Below are positions 12,274 through 39,667 of a DNA stretch of 49,304 nucleotides, in pieces (within the stretch, counting starts at the first letter, position 1; each line of letters opens with the position of its first letter). The position numbers and the translations under genes were made by a program. Source of the DNA: a virus; IMG/VR virus record IMGVR_UViG_3300042397_002464, positions 1 through 49,304 of that record; one strand, 5' to 3'. Below the pieces are notes generated by a model, which was not told the DNA's origin, made no database searches, and saw only the letters and a list, made by a program, of their open reading frames with translations.

Positions 12274-12323
12274 GTCCTGAATATGGCCTCTCGAATTTAT
12301 TTTGTCCGAACTGTCTTTTTGTC

Positions 12324-12378
12324 TTGTCTTCAAAACGACAAATTGCCATATTGTCAGACAGGGCAGCTTTTTGCCCTG
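12324..12378. promoter_or_regulatory. Operator-like inverted repeats between divergent operons
   Basis: Two inverted repeats lie in the 127-bp gap between the late minus-strand operon and the plus-strand AAA+ gene. TTGTC-N8-GACAA spans 12324-12341. CAGGGCA-N6-TGCCCTG spans 12359-12378 with a T-rich loop. Several more TTGTC/TGTCT words surround them, and the region is AT-rich. A shared operator or promoter region is likely. I could not pick a clear sigma70 pair. Confidence 0.4.
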
Positions 12379-12400
12379 GACACCACAGGAGACAGACCAC

Positions 12401-13837
12401 ATGACCGCAACCGCAAACATGAGGCTTACAGCCGAAGAGCGCGAAGCCTTGCGCTCCGCACTCCGCAAGCATCCGAACCGTCCGCAGGACATGCAAGTCT
12501 CTGCGCTCAAAAAAGAAGAGCTTTTGAGGGCCTGCGAAACGCTGGGCATCGACACAGCCGAAACGATCCGAGCCGCCACAGCGCCGCAAGGCGCAATGGC
12601 TTTGTCGGTCACGAGCACGAACACGGGCGCAGACCTGGACGACAGCGGCGACGTGGACGATCCGGTCGAACTCGAGCCCGTCTCCGATCCGGTCGAAGAC
12701 GCAATCAAGCCGATCCTGGCGCCGTTGGGACAGGGCGACTTCGGGACCTTCAAAAACCGCCTGCGCGAACTCGCGCAAAAAGCCCTGGTCAAGCCCGAGC
12801 CTGCGCAGACGAGCGCAATGCCCGTGTTGGTTATCCCGACCAGCGCAGGCGCGCACGAAGCTTCGAAGATTTTTCCCGAACTCAAAAACACGTTCGCCGC
12901 GCGCGTGATGTTGAACGTGACCGAGAACGGGAACACGCGCCCGGTCGATCCAAACTACGTCTTTCCCGCAAGCCTGGACATGATCGTGAGCACGCTCTAC
13001 CGGCGCGGCGGCAACGTGTTTTTGACTGGCCCCAAGGGTGCTGGCAAGACGAGCCTCGCCGAGCAAATCGCGGCACGTCTCAAAGCGCCCTTTGCGCATA
13101 TCGAGTGCTCGGAAGCGACCGACGGGCCCTATCTGATCGGACAGACCTTGCCGACGCCCGACGGTGGGACGGCGTGGCGCGACGGTGTCTTGGCGGCGGC
13201 GATCCGCAAGCCTGGGACAGTGGTGCTTATCGACGAGCCGAGCACGGCACGTCCTGGCGCGCTCATGGCCCTTCAAGGCGTCTTGTCCGCTTTGCGCACG
13301 CTCACGATCCCCGAGACGGGCGAGGCCGTGCGCGTGGCGCCCGGCGTGGTCTTCATTCTCGCCGACAATACCAATGGCAGCGGCGATACGACCGGCGCCT
13401 ATGCCGGGACGGCGCCCATGAACAGCGCCACGGTTGACCGTGCCGCGATCATGGTGCGCGTGGACTACGCGGACCGGGACACCGAAGCGAAGATCATTTC
13501 GGCCAAGACGGGCTGCACGCCGACGCTGGCGCAGATCATCGCCGATTGCGCGCTCGCAACGCGCCAGGACGCGGACAAGGGCAAGCTCACGATGGGCCTG
13601 GGCCTGCGCCGCTTGCTGGCACTGGGCGAACTCCTTGCCGACGGCGCCGATCCGGAACGCGCCGTCGAGACTTCGATCCTGGCGCACTGCCCGCCCGACG
13701 ACCGCGAACATCTGAGACAGATGACCGTGGCGATGCTGGCACCTGCCGCGATCAAGGCCGCGCGCGACGGCCGCGCCGAAACGGGCAAGACGCGCGCGAA
13801 AAAAGCCGCCGATGCCGACGCGCTCGAAAACTTCTAA
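12401..13837 (+). CDS. MoxR/CobS-type AAA+ ATPase
   Basis: 478 residues from the ATG at 12401, with AGGAGA about 10 bases upstream; the frame stays open to 12302 but the upstream part lacks a ribosome site. The first 200 residues are accessory, including a SAP-like stretch (VSALKKEELLRACETLGID). The AAA+ core has Walker A GPKGAGKTS (210-218), Walker B VVLIDEPS (274-281) and a sensor-1-like FILADNTN. The closest pattern is CobS, the ATPase of cobaltochelatase, and other MoxR proteins that work with a VWA partner. That partner is encoded next, 13 bases downstream. A role in metal insertion is possible but unproven; remodelling of a protein target is as likely. Confidence 0.85.
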   Translation: MTATANMRLTAEEREALRSALRKHPNRPQDMQVSALKKEELLRACETLGIDTAETIRAATAPQGAMALSVTSTNTGADLDDSGDVDDPVELEPVSDPVEDAIKPILAPLGQGDFGTFKNRLRELAQKALVKPEPAQTSAMPVLVIPTSAGAHEASKIFPELKNTFAARVMLNVTENGNTRPVDPNYVFPASLDMIVSTLYRRGGNVFLTGPKGAGKTSLAEQIAARLKAPFAHIECSEATDGPYLIGQTLPTPDGGTAWRDGVLAAAIRKPGTVVLIDEPSTARPGALMALQGVLSALRTLTIPETGEAVRVAPGVVFILADNTNGSGDTTGAYAGTAPMNSATVDRAAIMVRVDYADRDTEAKIISAKTGCTPTLAQIIADCALATRQDADKGKLTMGLGLRRLLALGELLADGADPERAVETSILAHCPPDDREHLRQMTVAMLAPAAIKAARDGRAETGKTRAKKAADADALENF

Positions 13838-13850
13838 GGAGAAAACGCCG

Positions 13851-15658
<1,808 letters not shown>

Positions 15659-15662
<4 letters not shown>

Positions 15663-27866: not shown

Positions 27867-28072
27867 TGGACACGCCGGAAGACAAAGCCAAGGCGGCGGA
27901 GTTGGCCTCGAAACTCAAGGCCATGAAGCAGAGCCATGTCCGTTGGATGCACGAGCGCCTGGCTTGGCGCTTCGTGCCCATCCCCAAATTCGTCCCCGGC
28001 CCCGGCGGCGCGCCCCGTGCGGGCCGCACCTACCGCGCCGAGCGCCGCAAAGCAGCGAAGGGCAAGCAATGA
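27866..28072 (+). CDS. Small basic protein, unknown
   Basis: 68 residues. The ATG overlaps the previous stop (TGATG) and the stop overlaps the next ATG. Helical N-terminus (DTPEDKAKAAELASKLKAMKQ) and basic Pro/Arg tail (YRAERRKAAKGKQ). Likely a translationally coupled accessory of the following nuclease. No family recognised. Confidence 0.6.
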   Translation: MDTPEDKAKAAELASKLKAMKQSHVRWMHERLAWRFVPIPKFVPGPGGAPRAGRTYRAERRKAAKGKQ

Positions 28073-29334
28073 CACAGACCCGCAAACACTCGCTGTTCGC
28101 GCCGAGTGCCACCAAGCGCATCCTGGAATGTCCCGGCTCCGTCGAGCTTTCCAAGCACGTCGAAGACCGCGCCGGGTTCTTCGCGGCCCAAGGCTCCGTC
28201 GCGCACAAGCTTGCCGAGGAAGTCCTGGCTGGCAAGACCGTCAAGCTGTCCGGCCACGTCGAGACGTTCGAGGGCCGCGAGATCGAGATCGACGACGAAC
28301 AGGAAGCCGCGATCCTCACTTACGTCAACTATGTGGACGAGTTGCGGCGGCGGCGCACGAGCCAGCAGCACGGCGGCTGGGTGCGTCTCGAAGAGACCGT
28401 GAACCTCGAACCGATCTGGCAGATGCTCGCGAAGCGCAAGCCGCCCGGCGACGTGTTCGGGCACCTGGATTGCGGCGCGTGGTTCCCCGACGAGGGCGAG
28501 CTTGTCATCGCGGACTACAAGCACGGCTCCGGCAACGCCGTCGAAGTCCGGGACAACCCGCAGATGTTCGTCTACGCGCTCGGCCTGCTCGGCGGGGTGC
28601 TGCTCAATGCCATGGTGAAGAAGATCACCATCGTCGTCGTGCAGCCGCGTTGCGACCATCCCGACGGGCCGATCCGCTTCTTCTCGATCCCGACCGTGGA
28701 CCTGTTCATGTGGGCGGCGGAAACCTACATCCCGACCATCGAGGCGGCGGCCAAGCCCGGCGCCAAGCTGTCCGCGAGCCCCGAGAACTGCAAGTTCTGC
28801 CCGGCCAAAGCCGAGTGTCCGGAGCTTCGCAAGACGGCTCTTGCCGCCGCGCGCCAGGACTTCGACGACGTGGTGGACAGCGACCCGCTGGCCCATCGCC
28901 CGCCGCCGCCCGAGCCGACCGTGCTGTCCAACGGCGAACTCGGCGCCATCATGGACCGCGCCGATCTGATCGAGACGTGGGTGGATGCGATCCGCAACGA
29001 AGCCGCGCACCGGCTCGAACACGGGCAGGAAGTCCCCGGCTGGAAACTTGTCGCGAAACGCGCCCAACGCAAATGGGCGGACGAGACGCAGGCCGAAGCG
29101 CTGCTCGCGCAGGCCGTCGGCGAGCGGGCCTACAAGTCTTCGCTGATCTCGCCCGCGCAGGCCGAGAAGCTGGTGAAGAAGCCGCACTGGAACGCGACGT
29201 TCGCCCCGCTCGTGTCCCAGGTGTCCAGCGGCACGACGCTGGCGCCCGCGTCCGACAAGCGCGCCGCCGTGCTCAAGGGTGCCGCGTCCCAATTCGACGA
29301 ACTGCCCTCTCCCGCCAGCGGCGAGGGGGCCTAA
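28069..29334 (+). CDS. DUF2800-type RecB/Cas4-like nuclease
   Basis: 421 residues from the ATG at 28069. LFAPSATKRILECPGSVELS, GSVAHKLAEEVL, GHLDCGAWFPDEGELVIADYKHG and a Cys cluster CKFCPAKAECPEL are the landmarks of the DUF2800 family, a PD-(D/E)xK exonuclease related to Cas4/RecB. Asp in GHLDCG and the Asp-x-Lys in IADYKHG form the active site, and the Cys residues may hold an iron-sulfur cluster. It probably processes DNA ends for recombination-dependent replication with the following ssDNA-binding protein. Confidence 0.87.
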   Translation: MTQTRKHSLFAPSATKRILECPGSVELSKHVEDRAGFFAAQGSVAHKLAEEVLAGKTVKLSGHVETFEGREIEIDDEQEAAILTYVNYVDELRRRRTSQQHGGWVRLEETVNLEPIWQMLAKRKPPGDVFGHLDCGAWFPDEGELVIADYKHGSGNAVEVRDNPQMFVYALGLLGGVLLNAMVKKITIVVVQPRCDHPDGPIRFFSIPTVDLFMWAAETYIPTIEAAAKPGAKLSASPENCKFCPAKAECPELRKTALAAARQDFDDVVDSDPLAHRPPPPEPTVLSNGELGAIMDRADLIETWVDAIRNEAAHRLEHGQEVPGWKLVAKRAQRKWADETQAEALLAQAVGERAYKSSLISPAQAEKLVKKPHWNATFAPLVSQVSSGTTLAPASDKRAAVLKGAASQFDELPSPASGEGA

Positions 29335-29411
29335 CCGATCCCCGGCATCCCGCCGTGGATAACCGCTCCGTTGCTTCGTGCTTCGAGCTTTCAACCAAGG
29401 AGAAAAACACA

Positions 29412-29984
29412 ATGGCACTTCGTACCCCCATCGGCATCCTGTCGTTCCCCAACCTGTTCGTCGCTCGCGCGGCGGTGCAGGGCGGCGAACCGCGCTTCTC
29501 GCTGAACCTGATCTTCGACGACGCGGCGCTCAAGACGCCGGAGTATCAGGCTCTCCGCGCGGCCGTGGCCGAAGCCATCGACGCCGAGTGGGGCGCTGGC
29601 AAGTCCAAGGACACGAAGTTCGTCCAGGGGCTTCGCCTGCCGTTCCGCAAGACCTCGGAGAAGGAATACGCGGGCTACGACAAGGGCACGATCTTCGTCC
29701 ACGCCTGGTCGAAGCAGAAGCCCGGCGTGGTCGATCCGCAGCGCCAGGACATCCTGATCGCCGACGACGTGTGGGCCGGGCAGCTTGCCCGCGCCACGGT
29801 GCGTCCGTTCGCCTATCAGCAGTCCGGCAACAAGGGCGTGAGCTTCGCGCTCGAAAACGTGCAGATCGCGAAGAAGGACATGCCCCGTCTCGACGGGCGC
29901 CAGTCCGCCAACTCGGCGTTCGACGACCTTCCGACCGAAGGCGGCAGCGCCTCGGCTCCGGTCGGCGACGACGCGCCGTTCTAA
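29412..29984 (+). CDS. DUF2815-type ssDNA-binding protein
   Basis: 190 residues, ATG with AAGGAG 10 bases upstream. RFSLNLIFDDAALKTPEYQAL, KPGVVD and a C-terminal acidic tail ending DDAPF are typical of DUF2815 proteins, which have an OB-fold-like body and an acidic tip as in SSB. It partners the DUF2800 nuclease in many phages. The 77-bp gap upstream allows a separate promoter, though I see none that is convincing. Confidence 0.87.
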   Translation: MALRTPIGILSFPNLFVARAAVQGGEPRFSLNLIFDDAALKTPEYQALRAAVAEAIDAEWGAGKSKDTKFVQGLRLPFRKTSEKEYAGYDKGTIFVHAWSKQKPGVVDPQRQDILIADDVWAGQLARATVRPFAYQQSGNKGVSFALENVQIAKKDMPRLDGRQSANSAFDDLPTEGGSASAPVGDDAPF

Positions 29985-30058
29985 GTCCGCCGTGTCGTGC
30001 CGTGTCCTGAAAGGGACACGGCACTTCACTACCACCCCAACCGCAGAAGGAAACACAA

Positions 30059-30286
30059 ATGGCCGAAGTCCCCAGCACGTCCGACCAGCGCACGGTCAAC
30101 AACACGATGCGCCACGCATACCGCGTTCTGTCCGACGCCGAGAAAGCGCAGATGCAGGCGATCAAGGACCAGGGCCTCGCCTTCCACGATCTCGTCGGCG
30201 CGCTCGGCAACAGCCGCGAACTCTCCATCGCCAAGACGAAGATCGAAGAAGCCGTCATGTGGGCGGTGAAGCACCTCACCGCTTGA
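30059..30286 (+). CDS. acb2: Acb2/Tad1-family protein, candidate anti-CBASS sponge
   Basis: 75 residues. TMRHAYRVLSDAEKAQMQAIKDQG followed by NSRELSIAKTKIEEAVMWAVKHLT matches the small helical Acb2/Tad1 hairpin family (from memory). Known Acb2 proteins bind cyclic di- and trinucleotide signals and so block CBASS immunity. Tyr21 and Lys36 have the same 15-residue spacing as the ligand-binding Tyr and Lys reported for Acb2. It is expressed early with the replication genes, as suits an anti-defence protein. Activity is inferred. Confidence 0.75.
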   Translation: MAEVPSTSDQRTVNNTMRHAYRVLSDAEKAQMQAIKDQGLAFHDLVGALGNSRELSIAKTKIEEAVMWAVKHLTA

Positions 30287-30426: not shown

Positions 30427-30618
30427 ATGCCCGCACCCACCATCGACGAAGTAACCCGGCTCACGCTGATCCGGGACTACCTGCGCCGCCGCGTCCAGGA
30501 GACGCGCGCCAGCACCATCGAAGCGAACACGCACGGCTACGCGCTCGCGCTCGAACTCAACTTCGTCGAAACCGTGTTGGCGGGGGTGAGCCATGCGCGC
30601 AGCGTCGCTCGCGACTAA
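30427..30618 (+). CDS. Small helical protein ahead of DNA polymerase
   Basis: 63 residues, ATG with GAGGAAC upstream. Mostly helical (IDEVTRLTLIRDYLRRRVQETRASTIEANTHGYALALELNFVETVL). Its last 26 bases overlap the polymerase start in another frame, so the two are translationally coupled. No family recognised. Confidence 0.6.
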   Translation: MPAPTIDEVTRLTLIRDYLRRRVQETRASTIEANTHGYALALELNFVETVLAGVSHARSVARD

Positions 30619-32641
30619 CAACCTGCCGCCGCATATCAAGTATCGGCTGCACCTGGACTACGAGACGTTCAGCGAAGCCGATCTCCGGCGCACGGGCGCC
30701 GAGCGCTATGGGTTCGACACCACGACCGACGTGCTCTGCGTGTCCTATCGCTTTGTGGAGATCGCGACAGGGACCGCGCGTTACGAGACCATCGACATGC
30801 GCAACGCGAACACGAACGGGCACCGCAAGAGGTTCGTGGAGTTTCTGCGCGACTGCTCGGTCGCGAACGACACGGTGTTCTGCGCCTGGAACGCCGCGTT
30901 CGAGCGCGCGATCACGAAGCAAGTCCTGGGCCTGGACATCCCGCCCCACCAATGGCGCTGCACCATGGCGCGCGCCGCGTTTTGGGGCCTGCCCATGAAG
31001 CTCGACGACGCGGGCGCCGCGCTCGGCGTCCCCGCCGAGACGCAAAAGAGCAAAACCGGCCACGCGCTCATGATGAAGCTGTGCCGTCCGCGCAAGCTCT
31101 CGGCGAAAGAGATCGCCGCCGGGGACAAGCCGGACTGGTCGCATCACACCGACGAGAACGTGAAGAACCTGATGGCGTACTGCGCGCAGGACGTGACCGC
31201 CGAGATCGCTGTCCACTCGCGCACGCCCGAACTCCCGGACATCGAGCAACGGGTATGGGAACTCGACCAGATAATGAACATACGCGGCGTCGGCGTCGAT
31301 CTCGCTCTCGTCAAGCGCCTGCACAGGATCGCCGACGAGGCGACGGCCGAACTGGACCGGCGCATGCATGCGCTCACGAAGGGCGCCGTGCCGAGCGCGC
31401 GCAACGCGAAGAAGCTCCTGTCCTGGGTCAACGCGCGCCTTCTTTTTCCGTTGCCCGATCTGAAACGCGGCACCATCAAAACCGCCGTCGCCAAAATCCA
31501 ACAACAAGAAGCATTTACCTACAACGTCGGACGAGACAAAGCGCTCGAAGCCCTCGAAATCCGCGCCGACGCGGCGCGCTCGTCGGCGGCGAAGCTGGAC
31601 GCGATGCTCGCCGCAGCGATGCCCGGCGTGAGTTCGTACCGCATCCGTGGGCTTCTCCAATACTACGGCGCCGGTCGCACGGGGCGCTGGGCGGGGCGTC
31701 TCGTCCAGCCGCAGAACATGCCGCGCCCTTCCTTCAAGACCGTGACGCAGGCCGTCGATGCCGTGCTCGCGGGGGCGACGTGGCAGGAACTCGAAATGCT
31801 CTTTCCCGAGAGCGCGCTCGGCGTCGTGTCGGGCTGCCTGCGCGCGTGCTTCACCGGCGATCTGGTGTCGGGGGACAGTTCGCAGATCGAAGCGCGCATG
31901 GTCGCCTGGCTCGCCGGGCAGCAGGACATCCTCGACGTGTTCGCGCGCAAGGAAGACGTTTATGTCTATACCGCCGCGAAGCTCGGCTCGAAGGACCGCC
32001 AGTTCGGCAAGGTGCTCGTGCTCGCGTGCGGCTTCGGCATGGGCGCTCCGAAGTTCCAGGACACGGCGCTCACCTACGGCGTGAAGCTCGCGCTGCCCCA
32101 GGCCGAAGACGCCGTGCGCGGCTGGCGCAACGCGAACCCCCGCATCGTGCAGCTTTGGTACGACTGCGACGGCGCCGCGCGCCGGATCGCATCGGGCTCT
32201 TCCAACATGGTCCAGGTCCGCTCGATCAGGTTCGAGCGCGTCGGGCGCAGCATGTTCGTCTGGCTGCCGTCCGGGCGGCCCCTCGTGTACCGGGAGATCG
32301 GCGTCGAAGTCGATCCGCGCACGGGCCGGGACAGCCTCGTCTACATGGGCGTGGACCAGAAGACGCGCAAATGGGCGAAGCTGCGCACCTACGGCGGCAA
32401 GCTCGTCGAGAACATCACCCAAGCCGCCGCGCGCGACGTGCTGCGCGACGCGCTGCTCGAAGCCGAGAGCCAGGGTCTCCACCCGATCCTCACCGTCCAC
32501 GACGAGATCATCGGCGAGCCCGCAGGAGACCCCAAGGCCAACCTCAATCGGATGCTGGCGTGCTTGCAACGACCCGTAGCCTGGGCGCCTGGGCTTCCTC
32601 TTGGCGCCGAGGGTTGGGCGGGCAAACGCTATCGCAAGTAA
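30593..32641 (+). CDS. Family A DNA polymerase with 3'-5' exonuclease
   Basis: 682 residues from the ATG at 30593. The N-terminal exonuclease has YRLHLDYETFSEADL (Asp-x-Glu) and CAQDVTAE. The polymerase domain shows motif A GDSSQIEAR (Asp about 427), motif B region DRQFGKVLVLACGFGMG and motif C TVHDEI (about 635). The usual motif A is DYSQIE; the Tyr is Ser here. The length and order match phage PolA proteins encoded with DUF2800/DUF2815. It is the last gene of the early operon, so it ends the replication cassette. Confidence 0.93.
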   Translation: MRAASLATNNLPPHIKYRLHLDYETFSEADLRRTGAERYGFDTTTDVLCVSYRFVEIATGTARYETIDMRNANTNGHRKRFVEFLRDCSVANDTVFCAWNAAFERAITKQVLGLDIPPHQWRCTMARAAFWGLPMKLDDAGAALGVPAETQKSKTGHALMMKLCRPRKLSAKEIAAGDKPDWSHHTDENVKNLMAYCAQDVTAEIAVHSRTPELPDIEQRVWELDQIMNIRGVGVDLALVKRLHRIADEATAELDRRMHALTKGAVPSARNAKKLLSWVNARLLFPLPDLKRGTIKTAVAKIQQQEAFTYNVGRDKALEALEIRADAARSSAAKLDAMLAAAMPGVSSYRIRGLLQYYGAGRTGRWAGRLVQPQNMPRPSFKTVTQAVDAVLAGATWQELEMLFPESALGVVSGCLRACFTGDLVSGDSSQIEARMVAWLAGQQDILDVFARKEDVYVYTAAKLGSKDRQFGKVLVLACGFGMGAPKFQDTALTYGVKLALPQAEDAVRGWRNANPRIVQLWYDCDGAARRIASGSSNMVQVRSIRFERVGRSMFVWLPSGRPLVYREIGVEVDPRTGRDSLVYMGVDQKTRKWAKLRTYGGKLVENITQAAARDVLRDALLEAESQGLHPILTVHDEIIGEPAGDPKANLNRMLACLQRPVAWAPGLPLGAEGWAGKRYRK

Positions 32642-33106: not shown

Positions 33107-36100
33107 CTAGAAACCGCCCACGTTGCCGGTGTTCTTGCGCGTGTCTTTCTCGCCGACGGCCATGTTGGCGAACTTGTCGGCGGCCTGGTTCGACGTGAAG
33201 CCGTGCATCATGGCGCCGTAGAGCGCGCCCATCGCAGGCCCGCCGGGCGCCGACGACGCGAGCACGGCGACCATCGGCGAGAGCGTCGCTTGGTAGAAGC
33301 CCTTGGCCGCGTTCCATTCCGCCGTGTTCGTGTTCGCCGCGTTGCGCTCGCCGAACGCGCCCATCATCGCCTGCATGGCGCCGAGGAAGTAGCCCATGTA
33401 GGGACCGGCGTAGAGCCCCGTCAGATCGCGCTCGTAGCGCAAACCGGTCTGCGCCTGCACGAGCGGGTCGAACGGGCCGTAGAACGACGCGCGCGACGCG
33501 GCGAGACCGACCAGCCAGTCCCACAATTCGCCCTTCTTCTCCTTCTCTTCCCAGCGCTCGCTGTTGAAGACCGCCTCGCGAAGGATCGAAAACAGCAATT
33601 GGCCCATGAACGTCGAGGCGTAGAACGTCGTCATCGCCGCGAGCGTGCCGCCCATCGAGCGCAGCCAGGCTTTCGACGCGGGCTCGCCACCCTGCTCGAT
33701 GCGAAGCTGCGCGTCGCGGATCGTGCGCCGGTAGTTCTTGAGGACCACGTTGTTCCACATGGCATACGAGAACGACATGATGCCGAACGTCACGCGCAGC
33801 ACGGGGCTCGTCACGGCACCCAGGGGCCGGTCGGCTTTCTTGGGGTCTTGGATCGTGTGGTCCACGAGGCGGCGCAGGCCGACGCCGAGCACACGGATGT
33901 AGTTCGCATCGGGGTTGTTCGTGTCCGCGCTGTCTCGCTCGGTCTGCACCTGGCCGACGATTTGTTCGACGGGCGGCAGCCGGTCCTGCTTCGACATCCA
34001 CTCGGCGAATTGCCGGTGGTGCTGGTCTTCGATGCCGATCTCGCGCAAGTCGGCGCTCGCGATAGCGCGCTCGCTCGGCGTGGAAGACGGATCGACCAGC
34101 GTGCGGGACAGGGACCGGATCGCGTGGAACGCGCCGACCATCGCCGAGTTCGAGCGCTGGTAGCGCGTCACGGCCGCGAGGCCGTTGCGCTGGAAGAACT
34201 TGGCCGTGAGCTTCTGCGCGCTCACGCTGTCCGCGTAGTTCTGCCCGAAGCGCGTGTTCATGATCTCGTCGTGCTGGGGCGAGGCGTTGATCCCGAAAGC
34301 CATCGCGATCTCGGCAAGCTCGCGCGCGTTGCCGCGACGCACGACGTTCGCGACGTAGGTGCCGAGCGCCAGGCCCGCCGCCTTCACGTCGCGGGTCGCC
34401 GCAAGCACGGTGATCGGTTCGACCATCGAGGTCCAGACGGCGCGCGGCAACAGCGTGAGCGTGCCGATGGTGTTGAGCCAGGAGAACGCGCGCGAGATGC
34501 CCGTCGGCGTGCTGTCCCGGTTCCGACCGGCGGTGATCTGGACAAGCTCGCGCACCGTGCGCGCGTCCTCGGGCGCCAGCCCGCGACGCACGGCTTCGGC
34601 CAGCATGATCTCCTGGTAGTCCGCCTTCGACGGCGGCAGGAAGTCGCGCACGATCCGCATCGCGCCCGCGTAGGTGTCGGGATCGTGGACCTTGGGGTTC
34701 CAGCCCGTGCCCTTGCGCGTCGCCATCTTCGCCGCGAACTGGCGCACGTCGGACACGCCGCCGGGCGTGCCGAAGCGCTTGACGTACTCGACGCGGCGAG
34801 CGGCGTCCTGGACATAGCCCGCGACCAGATCGACCGGGTCCGTGACCATGTAGTCCTTCATCAGCGTGTCGGTTTCCGGCGGCAGCGCGCGCTTCTTCGT
34901 GAAGTTCGCGTCGGGCGAGCGGCCCCCGAAATCCATCGGGTCCCCAAGCTGCACGGCTTGACGCCAGGCGGCGGCCTTGTCCTGGGTCCACGCCGCGCGC
35001 GCCGGATCGTAGATCGCGTCCAGCGCGTCCTGGAGATCGTCGGACAGCTTCGCCAGGCGCTCGTCGATCTGGTCCGGGTCCGACGACGCGCGACGTTCTT
35101 TTTCGAGCTTCTTGATCTGGCGCGCGAGCTTCGCGATCCGGCGGATTTCGTCGCGGTTGTCGCGGCGGAAATCGAGACGCGCTTCGGGGCGAAGCTCGCC
35201 CATGATCTCGACCAGCGCCGCCGTGTCGAAGCGGTCGCCGGGCCAGGTGCGGCCGAACACGAGATCGTAGACCTTCGTGGCCTGCGCCTCGAAGCCCGCC
35301 GGGTCGGAGAAGACCGCCGTGTCGTCGGTCTGGCGCGGCAGGTAGTTCTCGACGAAGCCGACTTCGAGGCCCGTGCCGTCGTTGACCGTGCCGTCCAGCG
35401 TGCGGACATAGTAGAGCATGTCCTTCATCAGCCGCCGGAGATCGACGGCGAGCTTCACGACGGGTTCGCTGCTCGCCGTGGCGCGCGCCTCGTCGGGGTC
35501 CACCAGCAACGCGCGCAGCTTGTCGGTCTGCTCGGGCGAAAGATCGTCCTCGAAGCCGTGGCGCTTGAGAGCCATTTCGATTTGGGACAGGCGCTTGCGC
35601 CCGACCTGGGTAACGGCTTCCTCGAACGTCTCGCGCTGGACGCGGCCCGTGCCGGGCGCCGTCGCGACGGCCTCGCGCAGCGTCTTGAGGAAGGGTGCCG
35701 CGTCCTTCGGCGCGCGGTTCTCCAGCACGTTCCACACGCTGCGCTGCGCGTAGACGAACGCGCGCGCGCTGTCCGCCATGCGGCGGGTCCAGGGGTTGCG
35801 CGCGTCGGTGCCCTCGGCGCCGACGTTGCCTTTGAACGTCTGGCTCTTGAACATGCGAAGCTCGCGCGACCAGAACTCGAAGCTCGTGAGCGAAGGCGAC
35901 GGCGAGAGCTTGTAGAGGTTCGCGGGCGTGGCGATGTCTTCGGTCGTGCTCGGCGCCATGGCGGGCGCTTTGTCCCCGAAAGCCTGGGACACGCGCAGCC
36001 AGGTAAACAGGTTCGAGATCGACGAGAAGATCGCGGCGCGATCCGCGTCCTTGGGGAACGTCTCGGCCAGGCGGCGGTCGGCGTTGGACAGGTAGGCCGC

Positions 36101-39100
36101 ATCGCCCTTGGCGATGAACTCGTTGCCGCCGCCCGCCGCCGCGACCTTCGACGCGACGAAAGCTTCGGCGGCGCGCGCGAGCATTTCCATCGGGTTCGCC
36201 CAGTAGCCGGGATCGCCGAAGCCTTCGGAAGTCTTGGCGTAGTTCGACGCTTCGACGCCCTTGAGGACGCCGCCCTTGTTGGCGTCGAACTTGTCCAGTT
36301 CCTTCTGCGCCTTGCGCGCGGCGGGCGTGGGCTTGCCGTCGGGCCGGGTCTCCTGCGCTTCGACGACGAGCTTGGCGCGCGCGATCTGCACGGCGGCCTG
36401 GTCCTTGTAGAGCGCGCGCATGAGATCGAGCATCGCGCGCGGTCCGCTTTGCGTGGCGTCGAGCTTGCCCTTGGTCGCTTTGTCCGACGCGAAGCCCGGC
36501 TTGGCCGGGTCGATCCTGTCCATGAGAAAGTGGTCGAAAGCGTGCATCCATTCGTGCGCGAACGAGTTGGCGCGGCCGGGCATGTGGACCGAGCGCGTGC
36601 CGGGGTAGTAGGCGCCGAGATATTTGCCCCGGTACTTCTCGAACACGAGCGAGAGCGTGCCGTCGAGGCCGAGCGCTTTCTTCGGCAGGCCCAGCGCGTG
36701 CAGCATGAACTGGACGTTCTGGTACGCATCGAGCAGCGCATCGAGCGTTTCGAGCTTGTCGGCGCCCTTCGCCGCGCGCACGTCCTTGAAGCCGAACTCG
36801 TCTTTCATGAGCCGGGTGAGCACGGCGATCTGCTGCCCCTCGGGCATGAGCGCTGCCTTCTCGGGATCGAGCCCTGCGGCGCGGAACGCGCTCTGGTAGA
36901 TCGACGTGCGCGGCGTGAACGCCACTTGGGTCGTCGTGCGGGACAGGCCGCCGCGCGGCACGATGTTGTCGCCGAGCGCTTCGTCTTGCTCCAGCGCCGC
37001 GAACGTCTTGTCGGACAGGACTTCGCCGTCCGGCTTCGCTTTGCGCGTTGCGCGCTCGGGCGTGGCCGGGGGTGCCGCCGCGCCCGGCTGCCCCCCGGTT
37101 TGGCCCACGGCAGGTTTGCCGGTGGGCTCGTTCGCAGGCGCAGCGACCCGGCCCGGAGAGGACTGGCCGGGCTGCGCGGACTGCTCCTGCGAAACCGCGA
37201 AAAGGTCGTTGGTCTTGGGCGTCGTGATCGTCTTGACGATCTGCTCGGGCGTGACGCGCGCGCCGAACATGTCGCCGCCGGGCGTCTGGTTCGATGCTTC
37301 GTCAACGTAGCGGCGCAGGACTTCGGCGATCTTCGCGCGGCCCGCCGCCGTGGTGAGTTCGCCCGCCTTGTCCTTGTTGAAGAACGAACGGAACAGACCT
37401 TCGGTGACGGGATCGAGCGGATCAAACGCGTCCTGCTGCGCCACGACTTGCTGCGGCGTGCGGCCCTGCTCGCGCATCGTGCGCAGCATGCCCACGGCGC
37501 GCATGAGCTTGGGCGTCACGTCGAACGAGGGATCGACTTGCTTCGCTTCGATCAGCGAGCGCAGACGCGCCCACGCCGCCGAGGCGTCGATCAGCGCGCC
37601 CGTGACGCTCTTGGCGTTGTCGTCGGTCGCTTCCATCGCGCGCGACACGGTGTTCTGGTCGTCGTAGGCCCGCGCCAGCATGGCGCCCTGGAGACGCCGA
37701 GCGCCTTCCTGGGACAACGAACCGTCCGGGTTGACGACGGTGTTGCGCTCGGCCTGCGGCAGCTTCGCGACCCAGCCCTGGATGAACGGCCGGTTGCGCG
37801 CCGAGAGCACGTCCCCGTCCGGGTCGTAGCTCTTGAGCATGTCCGCCGAAAGCGCGTCGCGGTCGGCCTTCGCGCGCTCGGTCGCCGACAGCCCCATCGT
37901 GGCGCTTTGGTTGGCCTCGTAGACGAACGCTTTGCGGTCTTCGGGCGTGAGCGCCGACGTGCGCCGACGCACCAGGACAGGCTGTTTCTTGCCGTCGGTA
38001 GCGTAGCCCGCCTTCTGGAGCGCCTGGACATAGGCCGCGTACCGATCCGGGTTCTGCTCGGCGGCCTGGCGGATCGCGGCGACGCGACCATTGCCGCTTT
38101 CCACGATGTTGTCCGGCCCGACGATAGGCGCGCCCCGGTCGGCCTCGGCGCCCTGCATCAGGCGCTCGGGGTCCAGGTTCGCGGCGATGTTGGAAATCTG
38201 CTCGGCCGACGCGGCGCGGCTGCGGTCGCGCGGCTGGAGATCGCCGCTCGCGGCCTGTAGCTCGGCGAGATCGACGATCTCGTAGTTCGTGTCGATCTGG
38301 CGCCCGGCGGCCGTCATGACGCGCTGCTGGCGCGGCTGCGCGGGCTCTGGAGAGGCGACCGGCGCCGGGGCGGGGGTTTCAGGCTCGGGCTGCACGACCG
38401 GCGCTGTGGCGGGCTCCGGCGCGGGTTGCGGGGCCGGTGCCGCCGTTGGCTCGGGCTGGACCGGTGCGGGCGCGGGGACCAGATCGGCGAAGGCGTTGGG
38501 TGCGGCCTGCGGGGCCGGAACAAGATCGTCGAACAGGTTGGGCTGCGGGGCCGCCTGGGGCGCTTGCTCTGCGCGGCGGTCGCGCACGGCGCCCACGGCG
38601 GCGGGCACGCCCTCGACGGGCGCCATGGCGCCCTCGCCGAGCGCTTCCATGAACACCTGGCCCGGCTTTTCGATCTCGCCCTTGGTCGCAAGCTGCGCGG
38701 CGGCTTCGCCCCCGGCGCCCAGGATCATGCCCTGCGCGGGCTGCGCCAAAGTCTTGTCCACGAGTTCGCGGCGCACGGCACCGCGCACCATCTGTCCGGG
38801 GACAAGCGTGCGCGACGCGAGGCCGCCGCTCAACGCATCGGCACCGCCCACGATGCCCGCGCGCAGTCGCGCGGTTTCGCGCGCGGCGCCCATGATCTCC
38901 GGGTTCTGGAAAGCCTCGGCGAGCACCTGGGGATTGTTCACGTCCACGCCCGCGCCCTGGAGTTCTTCGATCAGCGTGCCCCCGTATTCGGCGCCGTAGC
39001 TGGACATGAACTGCGAGAGCACCGTCGCCAGCGTCGCCGCCGGAGCGCCGCCCAGGACACCGGCACCGGCTGCCGCGACCAGGCTCGGGATTTGCTGCGG

Positions 39101-39667
39101 CGCCGACTGGAACGTGACGCCAGCGGCGGCACCCAGCGGGTCCGTCTTGAAGACTTCCCACACCTGGCGCCAGTCGCCCGCGCGGTCCAGCGCTTCCATG
39201 ACGGGGCGCTGCGGGATCGTGGCGCGAAGGGCCTGCTCGTCGGCGACGCCCTGCGCGCTCGCCGCGATAGCGTCGGCGATGTTGGTCTGCGCCTGCATGG
39301 CCTGGTCGGGCGACTGCTCGCGCATGACGCGCGCGAGCCCGCCGAGAACGGGAGCCTGGCCGGGCGGCGTGTTGAGGATTTGATCGCGGGTCCCGGCGAA
39401 GCGCGAAGCAACGTCGAGCCCGAGCGCCTGGTTGCCCTGGCGCACGTTGGACATGCCGGTGCGCAGATCGTTTGCCAGGCGGGCGAACATGCTGGTGTTC
39501 GCATCGTGGGCTTCGGTCGCCGCGCGCAGCGGGTCCAGCGGATCGACCGGCGCTTCGATTGCGGCAGCGGGCGCCTGCGGGGCAGGCGCCGGAATGAGAT
39601 CGTCGAACATCCCCCCGCCTTGGCGGGTCTGGCCGGTGGGGATCAGGTCGTCGAACATTCCGGCCAT
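33107..39667 (-). CDS. Giant polyvalent virion protein (ddrB-ParB, LPD/HExxH)
   Basis: 2186 residues. Short FDDL(I/V)P repeats mark the N-terminus (residues about 5, 20, 385, 397). A ddrB-type ParB domain follows (about 470-640; IVESGNGRVAAIRQ), then a Pro-rich linker, then a polyvalent-protein metallopeptidase-like domain with HEWMH at 1038-1042 (HExxH). The last 500 residues contain hydrophobic, membrane-like stretches. The family of polyvalent proteins (as in P1 DarB) is packaged and injected with the DNA and can block host defence or act as an ejection protein. It is the last gene of the late operon, after three internal proteins, which fits. Confidence 0.8.
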   Translation of the reverse strand: MAGMFDDLIPTGQTRQGGGMFDDLIPAPAPQAPAAAIEAPVDPLDPLRAATEAHDANTSMFARLANDLRTGMSNVRQGNQALGLDVASRFAGTRDQILNTPPGQAPVLGGLARVMREQSPDQAMQAQTNIADAIAASAQGVADEQALRATIPQRPVMEALDRAGDWRQVWEVFKTDPLGAAAGVTFQSAPQQIPSLVAAAGAGVLGGAPAATLATVLSQFMSSYGAEYGGTLIEELQGAGVDVNNPQVLAEAFQNPEIMGAARETARLRAGIVGGADALSGGLASRTLVPGQMVRGAVRRELVDKTLAQPAQGMILGAGGEAAAQLATKGEIEKPGQVFMEALGEGAMAPVEGVPAAVGAVRDRRAEQAPQAAPQPNLFDDLVPAPQAAPNAFADLVPAPAPVQPEPTAAPAPQPAPEPATAPVVQPEPETPAPAPVASPEPAQPRQQRVMTAAGRQIDTNYEIVDLAELQAASGDLQPRDRSRAASAEQISNIAANLDPERLMQGAEADRGAPIVGPDNIVESGNGRVAAIRQAAEQNPDRYAAYVQALQKAGYATDGKKQPVLVRRRTSALTPEDRKAFVYEANQSATMGLSATERAKADRDALSADMLKSYDPDGDVLSARNRPFIQGWVAKLPQAERNTVVNPDGSLSQEGARRLQGAMLARAYDDQNTVSRAMEATDDNAKSVTGALIDASAAWARLRSLIEAKQVDPSFDVTPKLMRAVGMLRTMREQGRTPQQVVAQQDAFDPLDPVTEGLFRSFFNKDKAGELTTAAGRAKIAEVLRRYVDEASNQTPGGDMFGARVTPEQIVKTITTPKTNDLFAVSQEQSAQPGQSSPGRVAAPANEPTGKPAVGQTGGQPGAAAPPATPERATRKAKPDGEVLSDKTFAALEQDEALGDNIVPRGGLSRTTTQVAFTPRTSIYQSAFRAAGLDPEKAALMPEGQQIAVLTRLMKDEFGFKDVRAAKGADKLETLDALLDAYQNVQFMLHALGLPKKALGLDGTLSLVFEKYRGKYLGAYYPGTRSVHMPGRANSFAHEWMHAFDHFLMDRIDPAKPGFASDKATKGKLDATQSGPRAMLDLMRALYKDQAAVQIARAKLVVEAQETRPDGKPTPAARKAQKELDKFDANKGGVLKGVEASNYAKTSEGFGDPGYWANPMEMLARAAEAFVASKVAAAGGGNEFIAKGDAAYLSNADRRLAETFPKDADRAAIFSSISNLFTWLRVSQAFGDKAPAMAPSTTEDIATPANLYKLSPSPSLTSFEFWSRELRMFKSQTFKGNVGAEGTDARNPWTRRMADSARAFVYAQRSVWNVLENRAPKDAAPFLKTLREAVATAPGTGRVQRETFEEAVTQVGRKRLSQIEMALKRHGFEDDLSPEQTDKLRALLVDPDEARATASSEPVVKLAVDLRRLMKDMLYYVRTLDGTVNDGTGLEVGFVENYLPRQTDDTAVFSDPAGFEAQATKVYDLVFGRTWPGDRFDTAALVEIMGELRPEARLDFRRDNRDEIRRIAKLARQIKKLEKERRASSDPDQIDERLAKLSDDLQDALDAIYDPARAAWTQDKAAAWRQAVQLGDPMDFGGRSPDANFTKKRALPPETDTLMKDYMVTDPVDLVAGYVQDAARRVEYVKRFGTPGGVSDVRQFAAKMATRKGTGWNPKVHDPDTYAGAMRIVRDFLPPSKADYQEIMLAEAVRRGLAPEDARTVRELVQITAGRNRDSTPTGISRAFSWLNTIGTLTLLPRAVWTSMVEPITVLAATRDVKAAGLALGTYVANVVRRGNARELAEIAMAFGINASPQHDEIMNTRFGQNYADSVSAQKLTAKFFQRNGLAAVTRYQRSNSAMVGAFHAIRSLSRTLVDPSSTPSERAIASADLREIGIEDQHHRQFAEWMSKQDRLPPVEQIVGQVQTERDSADTNNPDANYIRVLGVGLRRLVDHTIQDPKKADRPLGAVTSPVLRVTFGIMSFSYAMWNNVVLKNYRRTIRDAQLRIEQGGEPASKAWLRSMGGTLAAMTTFYASTFMGQLLFSILREAVFNSERWEEKEKKGELWDWLVGLAASRASFYGPFDPLVQAQTGLRYERDLTGLYAGPYMGYFLGAMQAMMGAFGERNAANTNTAEWNAAKGFYQATLSPMVAVLASSAPGGPAMGALYGAMMHGFTSNQAADKFANMAVGEKDTRKNTGNVGGF

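Follow-up and report, generated by a model that had tools for sequence, protein, structure and literature searches.

The window analyzed here, positions 1 to 49,304 of the viral record IMGVR_UViG_3300042397_002464 of IMG/VR, belongs to a phage that carries an integrase, a repressor-like gene, a terminase and a major head protein. A small gene lies within its replication operon, between the genes for a single-stranded DNA-binding protein (SSB) and a DNA polymerase (Table 1). Translation of the plus strand from 30059 to 30286 yields 75 residues followed by a stop codon (MAEVPSTSDQRTVNNTMRHAYRVLSDAEKAQMQAIKDQGLAFHDLVGALGNSRELSIAKTKIEEAVMWAVKHLTA), as the first-pass annotation of this DNA had stated. 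The GC content by codon position is coding-like (0.62/0.41/0.87) and the median dN/dS against 47 homologues is about 0.16, indicative of purifying selection; the open reading frame (ORF) is therefore a real, constrained gene. The GC-rich hairpin upstream of it is perhaps a terminator or a processing signal. Hairpins flank the gene in the window, but in its relatives conserved flanking hairpins were not found above the control level, and an Rfam search of the flanks gave no match. A pattern search of viral contigs for relatives of the downstream polymerase returned none. Elsewhere in the window, an AAA ATPase gene (porphyrin-biosynthesis PHROG, CobS-like) adjoins a CobT-like gene (12302-15662), and a 2186-aa ORF on the minus strand (33107-39667) matches PHROGs of unknown function only.

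Table 1. Features at and around the small gene, in window coordinates.
Feature	Position	Strand	Basis or remark
DUF2800 exonuclease and Enc34-type ssDNA-binding protein, upstream	28072..29984 (exonuclease to 29334; SSB ~29418-29984)	+	
GC-rich hairpin between the SSB and acb2 genes	29991..30029		12-bp stem, z -3.7, no T run
Ribosome-binding region (AGAAGGA) 5' of the ATG	30042..30058	+	sequence
Acb2-type gene, 75 aa, predicted two-helix hairpin and cyclic-oligonucleotide sponge	30059..30286	+	PF24729 69.3 bits, fold model
N-terminal segment, residues 1-20, SxSDxR..NN..RH motif	30059..30118	+	alignment; outside the Pfam match
Tyr21 codon	30119..30121	+	aligns with Vs.4 Tyr8
Lys36 codon	30164..30166	+	aligns with Vs.4 Lys23
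Lys71 codon	30269..30271	+	aligns with Vs.4 Arg79
63-aa ORF, downstream neighbor	30427-30618	+	
Family A DNA polymerase, downstream neighbor	30593-32641	+	

The protein matched the Pfam profile Acb2_Tad1_hairpin (PF24729) at 69.3 bits (E = 3e-19; curated cut-off, 27 bits), and the same model assigns 71.4 bits to Vs.4 of phage T4 and 66.1 bits to Acb2 (p26) of phage PaP2, both proven sponges. The first-pass annotation had named the protein an Acb2/Tad1-family candidate to be checked by an HMM search; that assignment is supported by this score, together with the Tyr-Lys alignment and the Foldseek ranking described below. Among PHROGs, the best match was PHROG 1454 (4e-8), which has no functional name in v4, followed by PHROG 717 (1.6e-6), the Vs.4 group according to Jenson et al. 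(PMC10097602). Single-sequence comparison with the PDB gave weak matches to Acb2 homolog 43 and to Vs.4 (E = 0.16-0.24), a profile of 37 relatives reached Acb2 homolog 43 with E = 0.002, and a hand-typed, consensus-like query of a Firmicutes branch of the family again gave only the link to this homolog (9ptq). Given the weak single-sequence values, it is mainly the Pfam profile match, together with the residue pattern and the fold, that connects the protein to Acb2. PADLOC and NCBIfam had no match for the protein, and NCBIfam was equally uninformative for Vs.4 and p26; a literature search on PF24729 and PHROG 1454 found nothing.

AlphaFold2 modeling yielded the Acb2 layout, two long antiparallel helices (residues 26-47 and 53-74, with high pLDDT in both; mean pLDDT, 83.9) after a short N-terminal part, of which residues 1-20 were modeled with low confidence; the helical character proposed from the sequence thus holds for most of the model. 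In Foldseek searches, Vs.4 (probability 1.00) and Acb2 (8h2j; probability 0.98, rmsd 1.4) ranked at the top, with modest E-values that are expected because the hairpin spans only about 50 residues. VIA-align Z-scores for Vs.4 (6.7) and Acb2 (6.1) were tied with those of unrelated helical proteins and are not decisive on their own. No N-terminal beta domain of the Tad1 type was found: the first long helix begins after only about 25 residues, in which no strands are predicted. Because this domain is absent, the protein fits Acb2 better than Tad1.

The residues of Vs.4 that contact the ligand are known from the work of Jenson et al., with Tyr8 stacking on and bonding cGAMP and Lys23 and Arg79 providing further contacts (PMC10097602), and we transferred these roles by alignment. 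Two features picked out in the first-pass annotation, the motif SREL.IA.TK.EEA.MWAVKH and a Tyr-Lys pair 15 residues apart, are both present: the motif spans residues 52-72, and the pair is Y21 and K36, corresponding to Y8 and K23 of Vs.4 and to Y11 and K26 of PaP2 p26. K71 aligns with R79 of Vs.4, S25 with the helix cap T12, and T60 with T68, the site of a T68M substitution that weakens Vs.4 binding (PMC12657230). Residues A58, A65 and A69, conserved among the relatives, match the hexamer-interface alanines A66, A73 and A77 of Vs.4. The interface hydrophobics L29 and F33 correspond to F42 and V46 if helix 1 is read ungapped from the lysine, as p26 supports; this match is our interpretation, as the alignment program itself opened a gap of four residues at this point for Vs.4. 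As judged from these alignments, the hexamer-interface residues of Vs.4 (L29, A66, A73 and A77) appear to be retained as F42, A58, A65 and A69.

Across 81 sequences (80 viral relatives and the query), Y21 is kept in 80 and K36 and K71 in all, and a wider set of 157 rows showed similar conservation of the three positions. Most of the other residues matched to Vs.4 above are likewise nearly invariant among the relatives. R53, present in 80 of the 81, aligns with R67 of PaP2 p26, which we take to be a residue of the trinucleotide site. Three Vs.4 residues, F82, S74 and H11, are replaced by T74, V66 and L24, respectively, and the aligned PaP2 Acb2 positions are A88, M80 and L14. Loss of F82 cuts Vs.4 binding more than 25-fold; PaP2 Acb2 is nonetheless a sponge and apparently also has no second stacking aromatic, so this residue may not be a family-wide feature.

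The part of the protein that precedes the Pfam match is itself conserved. Within the 81-sequence set, R11, N14, N15, R18 and H19 of the motif SxSDxR..NN..RHxYR are invariant, whereas Vs.4 and p26 have just 7-10 residues ahead of the tyrosine and do not contain this motif. Conversely, the C-terminal tail of Vs.4 and PaP2 Acb2 is missing from the 75-aa protein. The motif is also lacking in the remote relatives L142, L144, L145 and L146, and the Firmicutes branch (L149 and L158) has ENN[FY].YH. From the sequence comparison, the protein appears to represent a widespread branch, mostly from alphaproteobacterial phages and prophages, that is unlike both crystallized Acb2 proteins (Vs.4 and PaP2), and the simplest inference is that the N-terminal segment would help to close the pocket.

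Several relatives depart from this architecture. One subgroup (L129, L130, L134 and L152) has an inter-helix insertion of about 20 residues, with AAER or AAEK in place of AKTK. At two loci (L020:5001-5693 and L028:5001-5729), the frame reads through into a membrane-like protein of 155-167 aa with hydrophobic segments; the added parts are dissimilar to each other and have no Pfam or PHROG match, and these could be membrane-tethered sponges or simply lost stop codons. At two others (L011:4728-5222 and L123:3764-4285), a phage domain with the pattern YKSHKT...SP.KAF.EGY precedes the Acb2-type domain in an in-frame fusion, and a 226-aa ORF with a C-terminal hairpin (L148:7505-8185) suggests another fusion.

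Each Acb2 hexamer binds three cyclic dinucleotides, lodged between paired protomers, and hexamers of the PaP2 type take up two trinucleotides as well, one at either end of the trimer channel; the effectors therefore remain inactive (PMC10097602, PMC12657218, PMC11722364, PMC12043709). Because the nucleotide contacts are preserved, the sponge mechanism is the best reading here, and the gene encodes an Acb2-family member that probably acts as a nucleotide sponge against CBASS or a similar nucleotide-signaling defense. The two-helix hairpins would assemble into a hexamer that, during infection, binds the cyclic di- or trinucleotides with which such a host defense raises the alarm, and with the signal sequestered, the suicide effector would stay off.

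The hosts do not single out CBASS. A CD-NTase (SMODS) was found in 12 of 49 genomes with relatives compared with 2 of 190 random class members (p ~1e-7), but this enrichment vanished in order-matched, completeness-filtered genomes (2 of 15 with a PF24729 gene versus 31 of 282; p = 0.68) and was rejected; a further contrast, 12/49 versus 33/297 (p 0.02), mixes orders and was not relied upon. The host data neither support nor exclude CBASS as the target. Within the sponge reading, rather than in opposition to it, the main ligand might be something other than a CBASS dinucleotide, for instance, a cyclic trinucleotide, a cyclic ADP-ribose of the Thoeris type, or a nucleotide of Panoptes or CRISPR systems; the pocket would then be shaped by the N-terminal segment. 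We regard this variant as possible but on the unlikely side. The five invariant N-terminal residues without counterparts in Vs.4 or PaP2 Acb2, the loss of Vs.4 F82 and S74, the retention of R53 at the R67 position and the missing CBASS association in order-matched genomes all point toward it, but the dinucleotide-contacting tyrosine and lysine are nearly invariant, and the Tad1 beta domain is absent. That the conserved N-terminal segment and the absent C-terminal tail would create a different nucleotide pocket, with this branch sequestering a signal outside those known to be favored by Acb2, Tad1, Tad2 and Acb4, is a more speculative proposal that we consider rather doubtful.

Related stretches were detected in viral contigs (263) and in bacterial genomes (79), the latter mostly of Alphaproteobacteria. 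A blastn search with 2.2 kb around the gene gave 154 hits over the gene in other phage or prophage loci, with median ends at 30072 and 30284, and a single weak hit elsewhere, so that similarity is essentially limited to the gene. The proteins that neighbor it in the window almost never occur near its relatives. Among 160 loci, any protein family within 6 kb was common to 8% of locus pairs; for comparison, portal, head and virion genes share neighbors in 65-100% of pairs and terminase and endolysin in 14-15% (14-24% when one unknown gene is included), a contrast that is indicative only because these anchors were defined inside the same loci. The relative in Sinorhizobium phage Aussie has head-tail genes on both sides, that of ctCJ8213 adjoins recombination genes, and in the record named Dunaliella viridis virus SI2 the gene lies upstream of the holin gene. 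This last record (L165, NC_023841.1) is assigned to an algal host, and its Acb2 is 60% identical; the tailed-phage genes that it carries (holin, terminase and Erf) make the host label look doubtful. Microcystis phage Mae-Yong1326-1 has the same gene order, SNF2-x-DUF2800/RecB-SSB-x-PolA, at 33-56% identity and no acb2; a small ORF in the corresponding slot was considered as a counterpart and rejected as unrelated. The gene thus behaves as a one-gene accessory cassette that moves between phages, mostly of alphaproteobacterial hosts.

This distribution also bears on a role outside defense, in which the same hairpin would serve as a small replication or structural accessory protein, for example, as a partner of the neighboring SSB. 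In the window, its position with the SSB gene on one side and the polymerase gene on the other would fit such a role, as would the 60 of 162 relatives within 3 kb of terminase, portal or head genes. We nevertheless find it very improbable, considering that relatives adjoin unrelated replication, head, lysis and recombination genes, that Mae-Yong1326-1 manages with the same operon and without the gene, and that the nucleotide-contact residues are conserved. A chance or degenerate ORF with superficial likeness to Acb2, for which small size is the sole argument, can be dismissed in view of the Pfam E-value, the purifying selection, the ribosome-binding region and the hundreds of relatives. The predicted Acb2-type sponge provides a functional expectation for a widespread phage gene without an assigned function in PHROGs (PHROG 1454), and the contrast between its near-invariant sequence and its unrelated neighborhoods points to a counter-defense cassette under strong selection.

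The Acb2 family is already known, and this gene is a well-supported but ordinary member, of note as a lone, near-identical gene in many unrelated phages and, here, as a stand-alone accessory within the replication operon of a phage that has an integrase. With Vs.4 of T4 (PDB 7uq2), the protein shares the Pfam domain at a similar score, the equivalents of Y8, K23 and R79, the interface alanines and the IAKTK..EA.MWA motif; Vs.4 differs in its length of 88 aa, a longer inter-helix loop, the C-terminal tail, F82, the lack of the N-terminal NN..RH segment, and D61 in place of R53. PaP2 p26 (PDB 8h2j, 8h2x) aligns without gaps over the pattern YR.LS..E......K..G..F and superimposes with an rmsd of 1.4; it has the equivalents Y11, K26 and R85, as well as R67 at the position of R53, but is 93 aa long and ~22-29% identical, and like Vs.4 it has a C-terminal tail and more residues in the loop that joins the helices. 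The closest in length and loop is Acb2 homolog 43 (PDB 9ptq), a short form of 76 aa, although sequence similarity to it is weak (E = 0.16 for the single sequence and 0.002 for the profile). Tad1 (PDB 7uav) shares the second hairpin helix (SRE..A.T..EEA.MW) but binds gcADPR and has an extra N-terminal beta domain that is absent here.
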